Below, piece by piece: positions 14,840 to 25,674 of a stretch of DNA of 43,937 nt (the stretch's first letter is position 1; every line of letters starts with the position of its first letter). The stretch lies in the NCBI GenBank assembly GCA_002256005.1, contig NKIQ01000024.1:1-43937 (forward strand). Reading direction: 5' to 3'. The notes below the pieces were generated by a model. That model was given only the letters and a program-made list of their open reading frames with translations. It made no database searches and was not told the DNA's origin. The position numbers and the translations under genes were made by a program. Origin of the DNA: Alphaproteobacteria bacterium PA4. GTDB lineage: Bacteria > Pseudomonadota > Alphaproteobacteria > Sphingomonadales > Sphingomonadaceae.

Positions 14840-17800
14840 ATGCGTCATCTTCGTCTCGGTTGTGCCATTGCTGCGCTGGTTGCGCCGGTGGCCGCCGTCC
14901 ACGCCCAGGACACCACGTCCGCCATCCGCGGTCAGGTGACCAACGATACCGGCGTCGGCATCGCCAGCGCCACGGTCGTCATCACCCATATCCCGTCGGG
15001 TACCCGCACCACCCAGACGACCGATGGCGAAGGCAATTTCAACGCCGGCGGCCTGCGCCTCGGCGGCCCCTACAGCGTCGTCGTGACGGCGCCGGGTTTC
15101 GATGCGGCCAAGGAAACGGTTGCCAACCTGCTCGCCGGCACGCCGCAGCGCCTGGAAGTGTTCATGGCGCCGGTCGGTCAGACCATCGTCGTCACTGCCG
15201 GCCGGCAGAAATCTTCCATCGCCATCGCCAGCGGCCCGGCCACCGTGCTCAGCGCTGACGACATCCGCGGCATTTCCACCGTCAACCGCGACATCCGCAA
15301 CCTCGCCGTGCGCAACCCGCTGGTCTCCCTCGATCCGACCAACGGCGGCGCCATTTCGATCGCCGGGCAGAACAACCGCTTCAACCGCATCTCGGTCGAC
15401 GGCATCCAGTTCGGCGACCCGTTCGGCCTCGAAGCCGGCGGCCTCGCTTCGGCGCGCGGCCCGGTGCCGCTCGATGCCATCGGCGAATTCTCGGTCGAAA
15501 TCGCGCCCGTCGACATCCAGCAGGGTGGTTTCCAGGGCGGCGCCATCAACACCCAGCTGAAGTCGGGCGGCAATGATTTCACCGCCCAGGGTTTCTTCAC
15601 CTATTCGTCGGACGCCCTGGCCGGTGACACCACCCGCGGTGTCCAGCGCGACCGCAATTTCGAATCGAAGATCTTCGGCGCCCAGATCACCGGCCCGATC
15701 ATCAAGGACAAGCTGTTCTTCGCCGTCACCTGGGAACGTCTGCGTGACACAACCCCGTCGGCCGTGCAGGCCGTCGACCTTGGCATCACCCAGGCGCAGA
15801 TCGACCAGGTCAACAGCATCGCCGACACGCGCTACAAGTTCGACGCCGGCGACGTTGCCACCAACGTGCCGGAAAACGACGACAAGGTCGTTGCCAAGAT
15901 CGACTGGAACATTGCTGACGGCCACCGCGCCGCCTTCACTTATATCTACAACAAGGGTGACCTGCTCGCCGGCCAGACCGGCACTGGCGAAATCAACAAC
16001 ATTGTCAACGGCAACGCCACCCTGTCGCTGTTGTCGAACAACTACACGCAGGGCTCGACCAACCATTACGGCGTGTTCCAGCTGAACGACCAGTGGAGCG
16101 ACAACTTCTCGACCCAGCTGCGCGTCAGCTACAATGACTATGTCCGTCTGCAGGTGCCGTTCGGCGATCGCAGCTTCGGTCAGTTCCAGGTCTGCCTCAA
16201 CCCGAACCCCAATGTCAGCACCGGTTCGACCAGCCCGGCCTGCCCGGTCGGCACCCGCCGCATCCAGTTCGGCCCCGATGTGTCGCGCCAGGCCAATGAA
16301 CTGTCGGCCAAGACGCTGGGCATCGAATTCCAGGCCCAGCTGAAGATGAACAATCACACGGTCAAGTTCATCGCCGAGCGCCGCGCCCAGGATTTCAACA
16401 ACCTGTTCGCGCAGAATGTGTCGGGCAACTTCCGTTTCGACTCGCTCGCCGATCTCAACGCCGGCCGCGCCAACCAGCTGATCTACGCCGCCCCGATCCG
16501 CGGCGGCATCGATACGGCGCGTGCCCTGTTCGCCAACAATGTCTACACCGTCGGTCTGCAGGACGTCTGGGATGTCACCGACACCCTGTCGCTGACCGCC
16601 GGCTTCCGCTGGGACATCTATGAAACCCCGGACGAGCCGGTCTACAACGCCGACTTCCTGGCCCGCACCGGTTTCCCGAACAATTCGACGCTGAATGGCC
16701 GCACCGCCTTCCAGCCGCGCATTGCCGCATCGTGGAACCCCAGCGACCGCCTGAAGGTCCGCGCCTCGGCCGGCCTGTTCGCCGGCGGCAACCCCAACGT
16801 CTGGATTTCGAACAATTATTCGAACCCCGGCCCGACGCTGGGTTCGGTGACCGTCGCCCGCGGCGCCACCGGTGCCTTCACCATCACCGGCGTCAACACC
16901 ACCGGTGTCGATGTCCAGGCCCTGGGTGCCGCCACGCTGAACAACGTCACCGGCGGCGCCGGTATTCCGCAGCAGCTGACCACGCTGATCCAGGCCGCCG
17001 GTTCGGCCGCGGCACCGACCAACGTGCTCGATCCGAACTTCGAGATCCCTTCGCAGTGGCGCGTTTCGGGTACCGTCGACTACAACGCCAACCTTGGCTT
17101 CCTGGGTGACAACTGGAACCTCGGCGCCGATGTCGTCTGGTCGAAGGTGAAGAGCGCACTGACCTATGTCGACCTGCGTTCGGTACCGAACACCAGCCCG
17201 GGTGGCGCCACCACGCCGGATGGCCGCCAGCGTTACCAGGCGTTCAACGCCGCTGCCGGTTCCAACACCGATCTGCTGCTGACCAACACCGATCTCGGCT
17301 ACAGCTGGAACATCGTCGCCCGCGTCGACAAGGAATGGGAAAACGGCTTCCACCTCGGTGCCGCCTACACCTTCCAGCGCGCCAAGGACGTCAATTCCGG
17401 CACCTCGTCGACCGCCGGTTCCAACTATGGCAACGCTGCGGCTGGTATCGATCCGAACAACGGCGCCTATGGCACGTCGAACTATCAGATCGACGATGCC
17501 TATCGCCTGACCATTGGCTATGAAAAGGCCTGGTTCGGTGACAACAAGACCCGGATCGAACTGTTCTTCAACAGCCGCGCCGGCCAGCGTTTCAGCTACA
17601 CGATGGCCGACACCATCAACAACTCCGCGACGGCCAATCGTTCGGCCGTGTTCGGCACCGTGCAGACCAACACCCGTTACCTGATGTACGTGCCGAATGT
17701 GGCATCGGCCACTGCCGATCCGCTGGTGCAGTACGCCACGGGCTTCGACTTCGCCGGCTTCCAGAAGCTGGTGCAGGGCGGCGTGCTGAACAAGTTCCAG

Positions 17801-18175
17801 GGCCAGATCGCCCCGAAGAACATCGGTCGCAGCCCGCGCTTCAACAAGCTCGATCTGAGCGTGAAGCAGGAACTGCCCTTCGTGTTCGGCGGCAAGATGG
17901 AAGTCTTCGCCGATCTGGAAAACGTGCTGAACCTGATCGACAGCGACTGGGGCTCGCTGCGCCAGGTGGCCTTCCCCTATTATGGCACGCTGGTGAACGT
18001 CGCTTGCGTCGCCACCGCCGGTTCGACGGGTGCGACCAACACCACGCCGGCCCAGCCCTGCGCGCAGTATCGTTACAGCAACCGTTCCGGCACGGCGGTG
18101 ACGGAGCCGGCGCAGACGCTGTTCCAGAACCAGTCGCTGTGGCAGATCCGCGTGGGTGCGCGGGTGAAGTTCTAA
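14840..18175 (+). CDS. TonB-dependent receptor with carboxypeptidase-regulatory-like N-terminal domain
   Basis: An outer-membrane active-transport receptor of 1111 residues. A signal peptide ends at about residue 22 (VHA/QD). Residues about 27-112 form a CarboxypepD_reg-like beta-sandwich (IRGQVTNDTG). The plug domain follows at about 120-235, then a long beta-barrel ending in ...VGARVKF with the C-terminal Phe needed for BAM insertion. The domain order is that of Oar-like receptors. No TonB box can be named with confidence. ATG 14840 has an AAGGGG Shine-Dalgarno. Codon choice is strongly biased to C-ending codons, suggesting high expression. A PHO box candidate lies about 110 bp upstream and a strong terminator follows, so it is probably monocistronic. 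The ligand is unknown. Confidence 0.94.
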   Translation: MRHLRLGCAIAALVAPVAAVHAQDTTSAIRGQVTNDTGVGIASATVVITHIPSGTRTTQTTDGEGNFNAGGLRLGGPYSVVVTAPGFDAAKETVANLLAGTPQRLEVFMAPVGQTIVVTAGRQKSSIAIASGPATVLSADDIRGISTVNRDIRNLAVRNPLVSLDPTNGGAISIAGQNNRFNRISVDGIQFGDPFGLEAGGLASARGPVPLDAIGEFSVEIAPVDIQQGGFQGGAINTQLKSGGNDFTAQGFFTYSSDALAGDTTRGVQRDRNFESKIFGAQITGPIIKDKLFFAVTWERLRDTTPSAVQAVDLGITQAQIDQVNSIADTRYKFDAGDVATNVPENDDKVVAKIDWNIADGHRAAFTYIYNKGDLLAGQTGTGEINNIVNGNATLSLLSNNYTQGSTNHYGVFQLNDQWSDNFSTQLRVSYNDYVRLQVPFGDRSFGQFQVCLNPNPNVSTGSTSPACPVGTRRIQFGPDVSRQANELSAKTLGIEFQAQLKMNNHTVKFIAERRAQDFNNLFAQNVSGNFRFDSLADLNAGRANQLIYAAPIRGGIDTARALFANNVYTVGLQDVWDVTDTLSLTAGFRWDIYETPDEPVYNADFLARTGFPNNSTLNGRTAFQPRIAASWNPSDRLKVRASAGLFAGGNPNVWISNNYSNPGPTLGSVTVARGATGAFTITGVNTTGVDVQALGAATLNNVTGGAGIPQQLTTLIQAAGSAAAPTNVLDPNFEIPSQWRVSGTVDYNANLGFLGDNWNLGADVVWSKVKSALTYVDLRSVPNTSPGGATTPDGRQRYQAFNAAAGSNTDLLLTNTDLGYSWNIVARVDKEWENGFHLGAAYTFQRAKDVNSGTSSTAGSNYGNAAAGIDPNNGAYGTSNYQIDDAYRLTIGYEKAWFGDNKTRIELFFNSRAGQRFSYTMADTINNSATANRSAVFGTVQTNTRYLMYVPNVASATADPLVQYATGFDFAGFQKLVQGGVLNKFQGQIAPKNIGRSPRFNKLDLSVKQELPFVFGGKMEVFADLENVLNLIDSDWGSLRQVAFPYYGTLVNVACVATAGSTGATNTTPAQPCAQYRYSNRSGTAVTEPAQTLFQNQSLWQIRVGARVKF

Positions 18176-19287: not shown

Positions 19288-20241
19288 GTGTCCGAACCCC
19301 GCCACGTCAAAGTCCTCATCATCGGCTCCGGCCCGGCCGGCTATACCGCCGCCGTCTATGCCGCCCGCGCCGCGCTCGATCCGGTGCTGATCGAAGGCCT
19401 GCAGCCCGGCGGCCAGCTGACCATCACCACCGAGGTGGAGAATTGGCCCGGTGACGTCACCGTGCAGGGCCCGAACCTGATGATCCGCATGGCCGAACAG
19501 GCCCGGCATGTCGGCGCCGAGCTGATCAGCGACATCGTCACCCGTGTCGACCTGTCGGCGCGGCCCTTTGCCGTCACCTGCGATTCCGGCGCCGCCTTCC
19601 TCGCCGACACGCTGATCATCTGCACCGGCGCCCAGGCGCGCTGGCTGGGGCTGGACAGCGAAACGCGCTACCGCGGTTTCGGCGTCTCGGCCTGCGCCAC
19701 CTGCGACGGTTTCTTCTTCCGCAACAAGGTGGTGACCGTCGTGGGCGGCGGCAACACCGCGGTGGAGGAAGCCCTGTTCCTCACCAATTTCGCGTCGAAG
19801 GTCCATCTCATCCACCGCCGTGACGAGCTGCGCGCCGACAAGACCAACCAGGCCCGGCTGTTCGCCAATGCGAAGATCGAGATGCACTGGAACAGCGAGA
19901 TCACTCATGTCGAGGGCAGCAGCGATCCGCTGGGCGTCACCGGTGTCGAGATCCGCGACACGGTCAGCGGCGCGACGCGCAGCCTCGCCTGCGATGGCCT
20001 GTTCATCGCCATCGGCCATGTGCCGGCCACATCGCTGTTCACCGGCACGCTGGCCATGGACGATGAGGGCTATCTGATCACCGCGCCGGATTCGACCGCC
20101 ACTTCGGTGCCCGGCGTGTTCGCCGCCGGCGATGTGAAGGACAAGGTCTACCGCCAGGCCGTCACCGCCGCCGGCATGGGCTGCATGGCGGCGCTGGAGG
20201 CCGCGCGCTTCCTGGCGCATGGCGGCCACCCGGCGCAATGA
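19288..20241 (+). CDS. trxB: Thioredoxin-disulfide reductase
   Basis: An FAD/NADPH enzyme that reduces thioredoxin in the cytosol. The 317 residues show the FAD loop GSGPAG at 13-18, the redox pair CATC (C136, C139), the NADPH loop GGGNTA at 153-158 and the C-terminal AAGDVKDKVYRQ FAD motif. GTG 19288 is chosen because translation from an upstream ATG at 19207 would run through a palindromic repeat and add 27 residues unlike the family, and a CAGGA Shine-Dalgarno precedes the GTG. Its TGA overlaps the ATG of the LysR gene (ATGA), so the two are translationally coupled. Confidence 0.95.
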   Translation: MSEPRHVKVLIIGSGPAGYTAAVYAARAALDPVLIEGLQPGGQLTITTEVENWPGDVTVQGPNLMIRMAEQARHVGAELISDIVTRVDLSARPFAVTCDSGAAFLADTLIICTGAQARWLGLDSETRYRGFGVSACATCDGFFFRNKVVTVVGGGNTAVEEALFLTNFASKVHLIHRRDELRADKTNQARLFANAKIEMHWNSEITHVEGSSDPLGVTGVEIRDTVSGATRSLACDGLFIAIGHVPATSLFTGTLAMDDEGYLITAPDSTATSVPGVFAAGDVKDKVYRQAVTAAGMGCMAALEAARFLAHGGHPAQ

Positions 20242-21213: not shown

Positions 21214-21388
21214 GTCGCTGTCACAGACAGCAACGGCAGCCGGTTGCCAGATCATCGGCCCTTCCCCTCCCCCTCGACGGGCCCCTGATCGATCCGCGCC
21301 CGCTGCTCCCACCCCCCCTGGAGCCAAGCCGCCGCGGATCACCATTTCGACCGGGCCCGTGCACCGCACGGGCCCGGTCTTTTTTTTT
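21214..21388 (+). ncRNA. Candidate small RNA with C-rich anti-Shine-Dalgarno loops
   Basis: This stretch has no credible ORF but folds into successive hairpins. First is GCTGTC/GACAGC at 21217-21231. Second is a stem with outer GATCA/TGATC and inner GGCCC/GGGCC pairs displaying the loop TTCCCCTCCCCCTCGAC. Third is an 8-bp stem GATCCGCG (21291-21298)/CGCGGATC (21333-21340) with an inner GCTCC/GGAGC stem displaying CACCCCCCCT. Last is a 14-bp terminator with nine T. C-rich loops before a terminator are typical of alphaproteobacterial trans-acting RNAs (suhB/alpha-r14-like) that pair with ribosome-binding sites. The 5' end is inferred from TAAATA at 21202-21207; GGAAC at 21194 could instead be an EcfG-type -35. 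Confidence 0.65.
21349..21388 (+). terminator. Strong intrinsic terminator
   Basis: A perfect 14-bp stem (21349-21362 with 21366-21379), ACC loop, followed by nine T (21380-21388). It ends the candidate small RNA and any trxB-lysR readthrough, and it marks the left edge of the AT-richer TIR gene segment. Confidence 0.95.
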
Positions 21389-21791
21389 GGGTTTGTTAGT
21401 CGTGGTCTGATGTTTTGTTTGGTGACCAAATGGCCATTCCCGATACAACTTTGTCTAGGGGCTTTGGATGAGAAAAGCAGGCCAAGCCTTGCACGAATAT
21501 CATTGCAGATTGACCGTGGACGTTCCATTTGTTGACTTATCGCCCGTCGATGGCGCTATATGGACAACCTTTCTCCGTTTATTTTCTGAACGAAGTCCGA
21601 GTTTCCGCGTTCTGTTGGCATGCTGCTTAGCGACCTGCAGCCGAAAAAGACAGGCGACCAAATGTGGTGCTGCGCTGAGGACCCCCCGGACCGAGGCGCC
21701 GATAACTACCCTAGATGCCCTCTGTAAAGAATGCGTGGCTTTCGCTAAACTTGGCACCCAACTTGATCACACTTAATAAAAATGGGGGACT
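21389..21791. other. AT-richer leader of the TIR gene, no convincing gene
   Basis: These 403 bp between the terminator and the TIR gene are poorer in GC than the surroundings. A 102-codon open frame at 21468-21776 has no clear Shine-Dalgarno, an unbiased cysteine-rich composition and no recognisable fold, so it is not called. The segment presumably contains the TIR gene promoter and the left junction of the acquired DNA. No integrase, IS end or clear direct repeat is visible. Confidence 0.55.
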
Positions 21792-24362
21792 ATGCTGCCG
21801 ACTGTGTTTCTATCGCTTTCTGGCGTCGACGTAAGTTTTGTCGGCAATGTCGAGCGCCACATACCGCCCGGCATGGCGTATTTCTATCCAAGGAGCTTTG
21901 AGAATGGCGAGAACCTCATCTCGGCGATGGAAGAGCGGGTAGCGGAAAGTCGCATATTCGTACTCTTCGCATCACGGGCGTCGGTCGACTCCGTTTGGGT
22001 CCAGTTTGAGATCGAGCGCGCGCGCCTCAACAAAATCCAGAATCCAGGGTTCAAATGCTTTGTCTTCCCGGTGGAGCCCGGTGTTGACCGTGACAAGCTC
22101 CCGGCTTGGATGCGCGAGGCGTGGATTCCTTCTGCGGGCCACACCACCAAAGATATCGCCCGTTATCTGCGGGGTGTATTAGCTAGCATGGCAGAACTTA
22201 GCGGGACGATCCTGCCGCCCTTTGGACGCGGCGGCCTCATTGATAAGGCACGCCGTGAATATCAGAATGCCACCTTCACCAACAAGGTCGCCCCAAGCTT
22301 GTTCCTGTTCGCCGGCCACGCCGGCGTTGGTCGCCGAACGGTCAAACGCCTCCTCATTCCGACGCTCTTTCCAACACGGCCTGAGATGAACTTCGGTCCG
22401 GAGTTTGAACTTCCGCCCCATGCCGGCCTCGGCGACATCTACCGCGCCGTTCGACAGGAGTTAGAAGACCATTTCTCAATCAAACAATTCGAAAGTGCCT
22501 TGGCCGCTTTCAATGATGCGTCGACTGATGAGCAAGTCAACGAAATTCTCGGATCGATGTGTCACTTCGCTGAGCTTGGTCAGACGGTGACGGTCGTCAT
22601 TGGCTTTGGCCTGTATGAGGATCGCGGTGAACTTAAGCCTTGGGCCGCTGCACTGTTGAGCGCTGCCGCGCGGTATGACCAGCTTAAGCTATGCCTGATT
22701 TCCGCGCGTAAATTGAAATTCAAGGACCTGAGACCTCTTCACAATGTCCAGCAGGTCGATGTCGAGCAGCTTGAGGCGCCCGACATTCGGAATCTGATCT
22801 TAGAGACAATTCCGATTTTTGGGGGAACACCCGCTCTGCCGAACGATACTGTGATCCAGTCAATCGGTGGGCATCCGACTGTAGCGCGTACCGTCGCCCG
22901 CCTCATTGCCCATGGTGGTCCAGTGGTCGTTGATAGCGATCCGAAGCAGCTTTATGATATTCAGGAGGAGCTTCTAGCTGAAAGCCTCAGCTTCGATCGT
23001 CTGAAACCGATCGAGCGAGACATCCTTTCAATTTTGAGCTGGGTTCCCCAGCTTAATGGACGGATGATGGCAGATATCATCCAAGGCCATCACAGTATTA
23101 AGCAAGAGGAGATGGTCGAGACGGTAGAATTTCTAATTGCTGGGTGCCTTATGCAGATCAGCGGTGCCAACTACCTTATCTCCGCGCCAATTCGCGGAAT
23201 GTTTCGTCGGAAGCATGGCTACGGTAGCACCGAACTTCGCACAATCTTCGCACGCTATCTGAAGGCAGAGTGGGAAGATGCCGTCAAGAATGACGAATTG
23301 AGATCCGAATTGTTCGATGCTTTCGTCTACATGACTGCACTTGAGGGAGGCTCGCTCCCCAAGGAATTCAAGGGCCTTCTTTTACCGTCGACCCTACAAG
23401 ACCTTGTGCGTGATGCTTACGATAGACGTCATATCGACGACCACGCTCTAGATCGCGTCGTGGCGTGGGGGATGCCTGCGATCGACATGAAAATGGATGA
23501 GAACACCCGAGAGGAGATTCTGTCGTACTTGATGCGTGCGCTGGTCCGGCAAGGCTCTCCCGAAGCCGGACGTGTGCTCGTTCTAATTAAAGATAGCGGA
23601 TTCCGATCAGCTGCGTATCTCGAGGCGTTTCTGCTTCGATTGTCGGGTGGGAATTTGAATGACGCTGTTTTGCTGCTTCGCGAAGCACGGGAAATCGGCA
23701 AATATCTAAACAGCGTGATCGCCGATCTCGCCATTTGTCTTAAACTGCTTGGAAGGTGGGCCGATTTAGACACACTTCTTCAAGAGGAGGCCCACAAAGT
23801 TGACGGTAACCCAGTCCTTCTGGACATCAAAATCGGGATACTCGTCGCCGCAGGTAAATTTCAAGAGGCAGAGCGCGAAATTGGACGGCTCCGTGCGATG
23901 CCGTTCGATGATGGGCGCGCCGACTCGCGCACGGCGACGATCCTAATGAATCGCGATCATGATTTCGAAGTTGCCTATCAATTGCTGACCGCTGTGCTGA
24001 ACCGCCAGACGCGCGGAGCGCTTGGGGTTCGCCGTCTTCGTGCTCTCGCTGCAGCCCGCGGTAAGCGCTATGAGGAAGCGCGCCGGGACGCGGCCCATTT
24101 ACGCCCTAGGCAGGGCGGCGAAGACACTTATCACCGAATCGAAGCTGAAATAAAGCTAACACAGACAGACTATGAAGGCGCAGAGGCTGCGCGGCGAAAG
24201 GTCCGTTCTGAGACGGTGCAAGATCGATTGCTCGGTGCTCGCATCCTTGAGGCGAAGGGACTCGATATCCGGACACCCCTTCACCAACGTCAATCGCTTC
24301 TCAATGCAGCAGCCGCAATTCGGCATGCAAATCGATCCGTCGACGAATACGATTTCGACTGA
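21792..24362 (+). CDS. TIR-domain STAND NTPase with TPR-like C-terminal region (putative defence protein)
   Basis: 856 residues in four parts. Residues about 1-130 form a TIR domain (VFLSLSGVDVSFV start; SVWVQFEIERAR with E73 at the position of the catalytic NADase glutamate). A STAND/NB-ARC-like domain runs from about 165 to 380, with a P-loop-like GHAGVGRRT at 175-183 (Lys and first Thr replaced by Arg) and a GGHPTVAR (GxP) motif at 359-366. A winged-helix-like part covers about 400-475. Helical TPR-like repeats run from about 500 to 856 (GKFQEAEREI and similar). This is an NLR-type layout; bacterial relatives sense infection and deplete NAD+. ATG 21792 follows GGGGGA. The gene is solitary and AT-richer than its neighbours (for example 28 of 60 G+C at 22981-23040 against 45 of 60 at 20341-20400), indicating transfer. 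Confidence 0.88.
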   Translation: MLPTVFLSLSGVDVSFVGNVERHIPPGMAYFYPRSFENGENLISAMEERVAESRIFVLFASRASVDSVWVQFEIERARLNKIQNPGFKCFVFPVEPGVDRDKLPAWMREAWIPSAGHTTKDIARYLRGVLASMAELSGTILPPFGRGGLIDKARREYQNATFTNKVAPSLFLFAGHAGVGRRTVKRLLIPTLFPTRPEMNFGPEFELPPHAGLGDIYRAVRQELEDHFSIKQFESALAAFNDASTDEQVNEILGSMCHFAELGQTVTVVIGFGLYEDRGELKPWAAALLSAAARYDQLKLCLISARKLKFKDLRPLHNVQQVDVEQLEAPDIRNLILETIPIFGGTPALPNDTVIQSIGGHPTVARTVARLIAHGGPVVVDSDPKQLYDIQEELLAESLSFDRLKPIERDILSILSWVPQLNGRMMADIIQGHHSIKQEEMVETVEFLIAGCLMQISGANYLISAPIRGMFRRKHGYGSTELRTIFARYLKAEWEDAVKNDELRSELFDAFVYMTALEGGSLPKEFKGLLLPSTLQDLVRDAYDRRHIDDHALDRVVAWGMPAIDMKMDENTREEILSYLMRALVRQGSPEAGRVLVLIKDSGFRSAAYLEAFLLRLSGGNLNDAVLLLREAREIGKYLNSVIADLAICLKLLGRWADLDTLLQEEAHKVDGNPVLLDIKIGILVAAGKFQEAEREIGRLRAMPFDDGRADSRTATILMNRDHDFEVAYQLLTAVLNRQTRGALGVRRLRALAAARGKRYEEARRDAAHLRPRQGGEDTYHRIEAEIKLTQTDYEGAEAARRKVRSETVQDRLLGARILEAKGLDIRTPLHQRQSLLNAAAAIRHANRSVDEYDFD

Positions 24363-24556
24363 CGCTCTTGGTTGTGAAGTAGCGGGTTCCGCTAATAGCA
24401 GCTTTCCTAGCGCGGGTCTTCGAACGGCGTGAGTTGGGTCGAACACGGCCACCAATTATTCGCTCGATTCCCACCCGCCCCCGCCACCTCGTCGCACCTC
24501 TCTCCCTCCTCCCTTGCCGCCGCTGCCCCCAATGCGCTACTCGGAGTCACCGGGCC

Positions 24557-24654: not shown

Positions 24655-25674
24655 CTGTCGGATCAGCAAGCGCCCGCGCCGCCGATGAGCGATGGCGGGG
24701 CCGAATCCGTCGCAGCACCGCGGGCCAATTGGAAACAATGGCTGGGGGCCGGGCTCGGCCTGATCGTGCTCGGCCTGGCCATCTGGGGCATCCGCATGAT
24801 CGCCGGGCAGGTGACGCTCGCCGAGATCATCGCCGATATCCGCGATACGCCGACGCATCTGTTCATCCTCGCCGGGCTGTCGGCCGCGGCGTCCTATGTC
24901 GTCCTTGTCGGCTATGACTGGCTGGCGACGCGGCACCTGGGCTATCGGCTGCCCTGGTCCACGCTGGCGGCGGCGAGCTTTGCCAGCTTCACGATGAGCC
25001 ACACGCTGGGCGTGACGGTGCTGACCGGCGGCACCGTGCGCTATCGCATCTACACCCGCGCCGGGGTGCGCGCCGCCGATATCGCCATGATCATCCTGTT
25101 GTGCGGCTGGACCTTCTGGCTCGGCATCGTCGCGGTCGCCGGGCTGGGGCTGGTGATCTCGCCCGATCTGGCGACGCCGTTCAAGGACCTGGCGCCGAGT
25201 GCCGAGCGCTGGGCCGGGGCGATATTGCTCACCGGCACGCTGTCGTACCTGCTGCTCGCCAGCCTGTGGCGGCGGGAATTCCGGCTGTGGTCGTACAAAT
25301 TCTTCATTCCCGACGGGCGGGAGACGGTGGGGCAGATCATCATCGGCGCCGTCGATCTCGCCTTTGCCGGCGGGGCGCTTTACCTGCTGCTGCCCGATGT
25401 CGGTGTGCCGGGGCTGCTCACCTTCCTCACCATCTATGCCGTCGCCATGGTATCGGGCGCGATGAGCCACTCGCCGGGCGGGCTGGGCGTGTTCGAAGGT
25501 ATCATCCTGCTGCTGATGCCGGAGGCGCCCAAGGCCGGGGTGCTGGCGGCGCTGGTGCTGTTCCGGCTGATCTATACCTATATTCCGTTCCTGCTCGGGC
25601 TTTGCGTCATCGCCTGGCTGGAATGGCGGGCGTGGCGGGCGGGCCGTGTCGCTGCCGTGTCGCGGTCAGCCTAG
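24655..25674 (+). CDS. Lysylphosphatidylglycerol synthase-like transmembrane protein (UPF0104/YbhN type)
   Basis: An integral membrane protein of about 339 residues with eight or so helices. It matches the flippase-like membrane part of MprF and the YbhN group (SFASFTMSHTLG, LTGGTVRYRIYTRAG, SHSPGGLGVFEGIILLL). It lacks the aminoacyl-transferase domain, so it probably moves or regulates lipids; the substrate is unknown. The start is notable: the first in-frame ATG (24685) has no Shine-Dalgarno, whereas a CTG at 24655 has GAGAGGAG seven bases upstream and gives the natural-looking N terminus (M)SDQQAPAPP. CTG initiation is therefore proposed. It begins 25 bp after the tRNA and ends 9 bp before the GGDEF gene. 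Confidence 0.85.
   Translation: MSDQQAPAPPMSDGGAESVAAPRANWKQWLGAGLGLIVLGLAIWGIRMIAGQVTLAEIIADIRDTPTHLFILAGLSAAASYVVLVGYDWLATRHLGYRLPWSTLAAASFASFTMSHTLGVTVLTGGTVRYRIYTRAGVRAADIAMIILLCGWTFWLGIVAVAGLGLVISPDLATPFKDLAPSAERWAGAILLTGTLSYLLLASLWRREFRLWSYKFFIPDGRETVGQIIIGAVDLAFAGGALYLLLPDVGVPGLLTFLTIYAVAMVSGAMSHSPGGLGVFEGIILLLMPEAPKAGVLAALVLFRLIYTYIPFLLGLCVIAWLEWRAWRAGRVAAVSRSA

Follow-up and report, generated by a model that had tools for sequence, protein, structure and literature searches.

What does a solitary, comparatively AT-rich gene encode in a sphingomonad-order chromosome, how did it get there, and does it protect its host against phages? These questions are raised by a 43,937-nucleotide stretch of contig NKIQ01000024.1 from Alphaproteobacteria bacterium PA4, referred to here as the window, in which a frame is open from its ATG across 856 amino acids (Table 1). 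An earlier note, made from the sequence alone, had proposed that the product is a TIR-STAND-TPR protein and that the gene is an acquired, NLR-like antiphage candidate. Our analysis goes beyond that note in two respects: a named and tested relative, TIR-NLR, exists, and the NTPase motifs are non-canonical. The window protein is a divergent relative of the tested TIR-NLR kind and no new kind of system; antiphage defence by the window protein itself is what we infer.

Table 1. Coordinates of the features discussed, numbered from the first nucleotide of the window.
Feature	Position	Strand	Basis or remark
TIR-STAND-TPR ORF	21792..24362	+	divergent relative of TIR-NLR antiphage protein; 856 aa plus stop
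TIR domain, about residues 5-135	21804..22196	+	PF13676 and TIR-only profile
E73 codon, putative NADase glutamate	22008..22010	+	Glu in 18/18 aligned homologues
STAND-like nucleotide-binding region, about residues 144-400	22221..22991	+	motifs over 18 rows; colinearity with 9m0n
Non-canonical P-loop GHAGVGRRT, Arg181 at Walker A lysine position	22314..22340	+	18-row alignment
TPR-like helical repeats, about residues 551-840	23442..24311	+	model, TPR matches, family members
Upstream stretch common to copies L003 and L004	21684..21791	+	blastn; about 108-110 bp
Inserted foreign DNA (approximate)	21385..24500		54.3% GC; right edge uncertain, about 24437-24550
Intrinsic-terminator-like hairpin	21349..21379	+	14-bp stem, nine T; immediately left of insert
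tRNA, CAT anticodon	24557..24631	+	ARAGORN; right edge of insert, native to locus

Domain layout of the window protein

Comparison of the ORF with Pfam returned five matches; TIR_2 was above its cut-off and the remaining four were under theirs. TIR_2 (PF13676) covers residues 5-95 (E 3.6e-8; 34.4 bits, the cut-off being 28), which bears out the N-terminal TIR domain of the earlier note. The numbering that it gave for the putative NADase glutamate, E73, was also correct, and the residue lies within SVWVQFE. A profile of the TIR domain only, built without the structure 9m0n, matched 9m0n (9.8e-26), Cat1 (3.4e-10) and AbTIR (2.1e-5) as well as TLR2 (3.8e-6) and Roq1 (0.0049). The NAD+-cleaving Cat1 has a glutamate aligned with E73, and TLR2 does likewise. 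Since TLR2 is not known to be an NADase, E73 alone is no proof of catalysis. The Cat1 residue in question is not named in the available portion of the Cat1 paper (PMC12162218). The window's genome holds four more TIR_2 matches (contigs C7, C24, C11 and C18; L060, L061, L062 and L064), of which three exceed the Pfam cut-off.

For the STAND-like region that had been proposed to follow the TIR domain, the motifs and colinear homology to 9m0n stand, but neither a STAND nor a winged-helix Pfam match was found in the window protein at E <= 10. The motifs comprise hhGR (residues 145-146), GHAGVGRRT (175-183), a sensor-like SxR (304-306) and GxP (360-362). The Walker A P-loop usually carries a lysine and Walker B an aspartate. 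Across 18 aligned homologues, the P-loop fits GxxxxGR[RKGT][TS], and every row, that of 9m0n among them, has arginine where a lysine is usual; the hhGR arginine and the GxP proline are each present in 18/18. Asp occupies the Walker B aspartate column in 9 of the 18 rows and is absent from the window protein, its near relatives, L043 and L071. At 18-25% identity the middle region cannot be aligned with certainty, and we therefore trust this column less than the P-loop. The 18-row count omits L053 and L055 (TPR only), L040 (the same protein as L044), the partial matches L052, L054, L056 and L074, and L038, L041, L047 and L057, which repeat loci already counted; among its rows, the window protein (P0001), L003, L004 and L005 are mutually close. 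AAA matches at E <= 0.05 were found in a few family members (AAA_16 in 1/9 and AAA_22 in 2/9). Read from sequence, the putative STAND-like assignment is based on the motifs, the homology and these AAA matches in a few relatives. A winged helix is plausible as a predicted element of the window protein, whose model has block pLDDT values of 27-70 over residues 131-530. A narrow literature search found no paper describing STAND proteins with an arginine P-loop, which is weak evidence of absence.

The TPR-like repeats described for the C-terminal part hold up, with a weak TPR model match, modelled helical repeats and Pfam TPR matches in relatives. An NCBIfam TPR model matched residues 659-767 (3.4e-4), far below the model's cut-off, and TPR_19 was recognised in four of the nine family members aligned (E <= 0.05). 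Residues 551-840 were modelled as helical repeats with block pLDDT values of 70-91, in a fold predicted with seven aligned rows that has a mean pLDDT of 63 and a pTM of 0.39, the TIR domain being fair and the middle poor. An earlier fold from five close sequences (pLDDT 50) was set aside. When this low-confidence model was compared with the PDB using Foldseek, nine matches were obtained at E <= 0.001, those listed being mainly TPR-type proteins; the plant RPP1 tetramer ranked 14 (E 3.1e-3; TM 0.13 by query), and 9m0n was not among the best 50 matches. A SUKH-4 match to residues 577-670 (0.015, below cut-off) was dropped because these residues model as helical repeats.

Relationship to TIR-NLR and other known systems

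The sole phmmer match below 0.001 in the PDB was chain A of 9m0n (E 2.2e-8), which has 824 aa and the entry name tetratricopeptide repeat protein. The alignment is colinear, pairing residues 6-587 of 856 in the window protein with 5-578 of 9m0n; the last 269 residues of the window protein fall outside it, and identity in a multiple alignment is about 18%. We take 9m0n to be a TIR-NLR because PADLOC's model of that family, 824 positions long, gives the 9m0n segment a score of 1312 bits. The best PADLOC family for the window protein was also TIR-NLR (9.3e-6), over residues 6-111 only. A full-length match to this model (PDLC03015) was not obtained, only profile positions 5-113 of 824 being covered, and the window protein is thus filed as a divergent relative, not as a PADLOC TIR-NLR proper. 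The profile of alignment A2 includes 9m0n, which makes its match to 9m0n circular, and it was not used here; the independent evidence for this relationship consists of the phmmer match and the TIR-only profile. No paper on PDB entry 9m0n was found, and PDB 9umd was not mentioned in the literature among the matches listed.

According to the portion of Rousset et al. (2022, PMC9122126) available to us, TIR-NLR is a single gene with TIR, STAND and TPR parts that protects E. coli against phages, and it was described in E. coli P4-like satellites between psu and int. On the viral contig L059, a Psu-like gene and an integrase enclose a copy that shares 99% identity with the 9m0n segment; this copy of the published gene (L059:3989-6459, P4-like satellite) is split into two open pieces. 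Similar to TIR-NLR (PDLC03015; 9m0n and 9umd by model match), the window system consists of one gene whose TIR, STAND-like and TPR parts are arranged alike, and it has the conserved glutamate and the arginine P-loop. It differs from TIR-NLR in its low identity, its length (856 aa vs 824 aa) and the loss of the Walker B Asp column in the window's clade. Further, the window gene lies in a sphingomonad-order chromosome, within an insert without satellite genes.

Other NLR-like proteins are more loosely comparable. The order TIR, nucleotide-binding region, repeats is shared with the plant TIR-NB-LRR proteins RPP1 and Roq1; however, the repeats of the window protein are TPR-like rather than leucine-rich, and no LRR family was found in it at E <= 10. 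This is a likeness of layout, not membership. Avs/AVAST systems also combine a STAND receptor with an N-terminal effector and C-terminal repeats. In contrast, the effector here is a TIR domain, and Avs/AVAST is not among the three PADLOC families listed for the window protein.

Insertion locus and spread of the gene

The gene is AT-richer than its neighbours, as had been noted. The ORF has 54.8% GC compared with 66.6% (sd 2.0%) in intervals of the same length elsewhere that do not overlap it, and none of 36,234 offsets outside the ORF, which overlap one another, is as low; its third-position GC is 0.58. It is also solitary, since no other ORF wholly within the insert exceeds 114 aa and the copies in other genomes have no common partner. 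The terminator and tRNA gene that the earlier note placed at its flanks, and counted as signs of acquisition, are both present, but both are native to the recipient locus. This is indicated by nine relatives' loci, in which a similar hairpin and T run were seen by eye and a tRNA was found by ARAGORN. Among ten fetched loci of relatives, these nine have the same neighbours, separated by a gap of 254-455 bp vs 3.3-3.4 kb in the window. They carry the tRNA and both upstream genes (presumably thioredoxin-reductase-like and LysR-like), while the tenth, L030, is without the left-hand part and the tRNA. The flanking protein at 24685, around which these ten loci were fetched, was recovered from 21 of the 22 genus members searched, the window's own genome being one of them. 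ARAGORN assigns the tRNA to Met; we take its sequence to resemble tRNA-Ile2 of the lysidine type. Integration at the tRNA by a site-specific route was considered and rejected, since no tRNA end is duplicated except as words of chance length and the insert has no flanking repeats.

The window gene was found in none of 23 other genomes of the same genus and none of 12 others of the same family; in that set of 60 genomes there were two matches, one being the window's own. A sample of the order gave matches in 5 of 396 genomes, own included. With the family profile, 9 of 385 genomes sampled from the class matched at E <= 1e-10 (four, own included, over most of the length), as did 7 of 398 from the phylum at E <= 1e-15 (six, own included, over 730 positions or more).

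Proteins 87-92% identical to the window protein are encoded in Sphingobium sp. SYK-6, Sphingomonas sp. IC081 and Novosphingobium organovorum, in unrelated surroundings. What the SYK-6 and IC081 copies have in common with the window is the gene and about 110 bp upstream, a stretch that may hold the promoter and leader, and for the N. organovorum copy (L005) it is the gene alone. The left part of the insert (21385-21683) is AT-rich (49% GC) and has no blastn match in the other copies. As a yardstick, we used the core protein at 19288-20235; another protein encoded in the window, at 14840-18172, had no match in two genomes. The best match to this core protein has 56-62% identity in the three genomes with 87-92% copies and 85% in one genome of the same genus that lacks the window gene. 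High gene identity, low core identity and unrelated loci together show that the gene travelled between genera. The dN/dS values of 0.04-0.08 (6 pairs of 4 copies) indicate purifying selection, with the gene kept functional. We also asked whether the gene is an old resident of this locus, inherited vertically, and the genomes gave a different picture: the gene is missing from all 23 other genomes of the genus, and nine of ten relatives' loci have a short gap in its place. Acquisition, as the earlier note had suggested, and specifically horizontal acquisition, is well supported.

Several relatives lie in phage or mobile DNA or adjoin known defence genes. The IC081 copy (L004:6942-10568; L041) adjoins a portal gene and a DNA methyltransferase in a prophage that further holds capsid, scaffold and terminase genes and an integrase; from this gene set, we take the prophage to be P2-like. 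Its arrangement, known here by the portal side only, appears to resemble the E. coli P2 defence hotspot, located between gpA and portal gpQ according to the part of PMC9122126 cited above. The Novosphingobium copy is near an integrase adjoining tRNA-Cys. A 35% homologue lies amid a C5 methylase, a NaeI-type enzyme, Vsr, an HNH protein and an integrase, and a 46% homologue on a viral contig is found between tail genes and a transposase. Four homologues are plasmid-borne, one near a UvrD helicase with a PD-(D/E)XK nuclease and MazF, another near a type I restriction enzyme. The Zymomonas and Enterococcus plasmid copies have no obvious defence gene among their annotated neighbours beyond a RelE/ParE toxin, and one scanned neighbour had no PADLOC match. 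A search of 50,697 phage records with the window protein came up empty at E <= 1e-5, and viral scans with distant relatives or the 46% homologue found no further relative. Similarity to plasmid DNA was set aside: 97 records matched, and the 10 listed all hit the tRNA stretch only.

The presence of relatives on plasmids and integrated elements would also suit a gene that serves mobile elements by addiction or stabilisation rather than acting against phages. However, the copies share no partner and the characterised relative is antiphage, as far as the available part of PMC9122126 describes it, and we regard this explanation as very unlikely.

Proposed function

Based upon these observations, we consider it quite probable, on sequence grounds, that the window gene encodes a horizontally acquired, single-gene TIR-STAND-TPR antiphage receptor, a divergent relative of TIR-NLR with a proposed NAD+ mechanism. 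The C-terminal TPR array would bind a phage-made molecule, and ligand binding would release the STAND module, followed by oligomerisation. Judging from the family and from TIR enzymology, the TIR domains would then assemble NADase sites using E73, and NAD+ would be destroyed, so that infection aborts and phage growth stops. In the part of their paper available to us, Rousset et al. suggest the same route of sensing, oligomerisation and NAD+ cleavage for TIR-NLR (PMC9122126). Several observations weigh against our reading: the low identity to 9m0n, whose alignment stops short of the C-terminal 269 residues; the PADLOC match confined to the N terminus; the Foldseek results, dominated by TPR proteins; the degenerate NTPase motifs; the glutamate being shared with TLR2; and an insert in which no further defence gene accompanies the window copy.

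Alternatively, the product of the TIR domain could be a cADPR isomer that signals to a separate effector, in place of NAD+ depletion by the TIR domain. Signalling products of TIR enzymes exist in Thoeris, according to the portions of two papers available to us (PMC10022894, PMC11204291), and the window protein, similar to ThsB, has a TIR domain, with weak matches to ThsB_TIR in Pfam (0.047, below cut-off) and to ThsB in PADLOC (0.0017-0.0019). In contrast to Thoeris (ThsA/ThsB), this TIR domain is fused to STAND-like and TPR parts. Moreover, no ThsA was found within the insert, which has no ORF of ThsA size, none wholly inside it but the main ORF exceeding 114 aa, and the copies share only the gene with about 110 bp, or the gene alone. 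Judged by the insert and these copies, a separate effector seems improbable, and we favour NAD+ depletion by the receptor itself.

Many bacterial STAND proteins are regulators, and with its non-canonical Walker motifs the window protein might be a signalling or regulatory STAND protein outside defence, with an inactive TIR domain. Against this are the glutamate kept in 18/18 homologues, the patchy distribution, and the phage and defence neighbours of several relatives; we think such a role highly doubtful. For an antiphage receptor, the same motifs suggest another way of working. With an arginine where the P-loop lysine would be and the Walker B aspartate missing from its clade, the STAND module may, speculatively, switch through nucleotide binding and release instead of ordinary hydrolysis. 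We offer as a tentative, rather unlikely extension that these are hydrolysis-free bacterial NLRs, with an arginine Walker A family-wide and, in the window clade, no Walker B Asp either, which would switch by nucleotide binding and release or by ligand alone and move as a single gene between genera.

In conclusion, a tested NLR-like family is extended by a divergent branch whose members come from sphingomonads and other alphaproteobacteria. Its gene is seen moving alone between genera, and one relative adjoins the portal gene of a prophage that is presumably P2-like. The arginine P-loop, which is also present in 9m0n, raises the question of whether these NLRs hydrolyse nucleotide at all.
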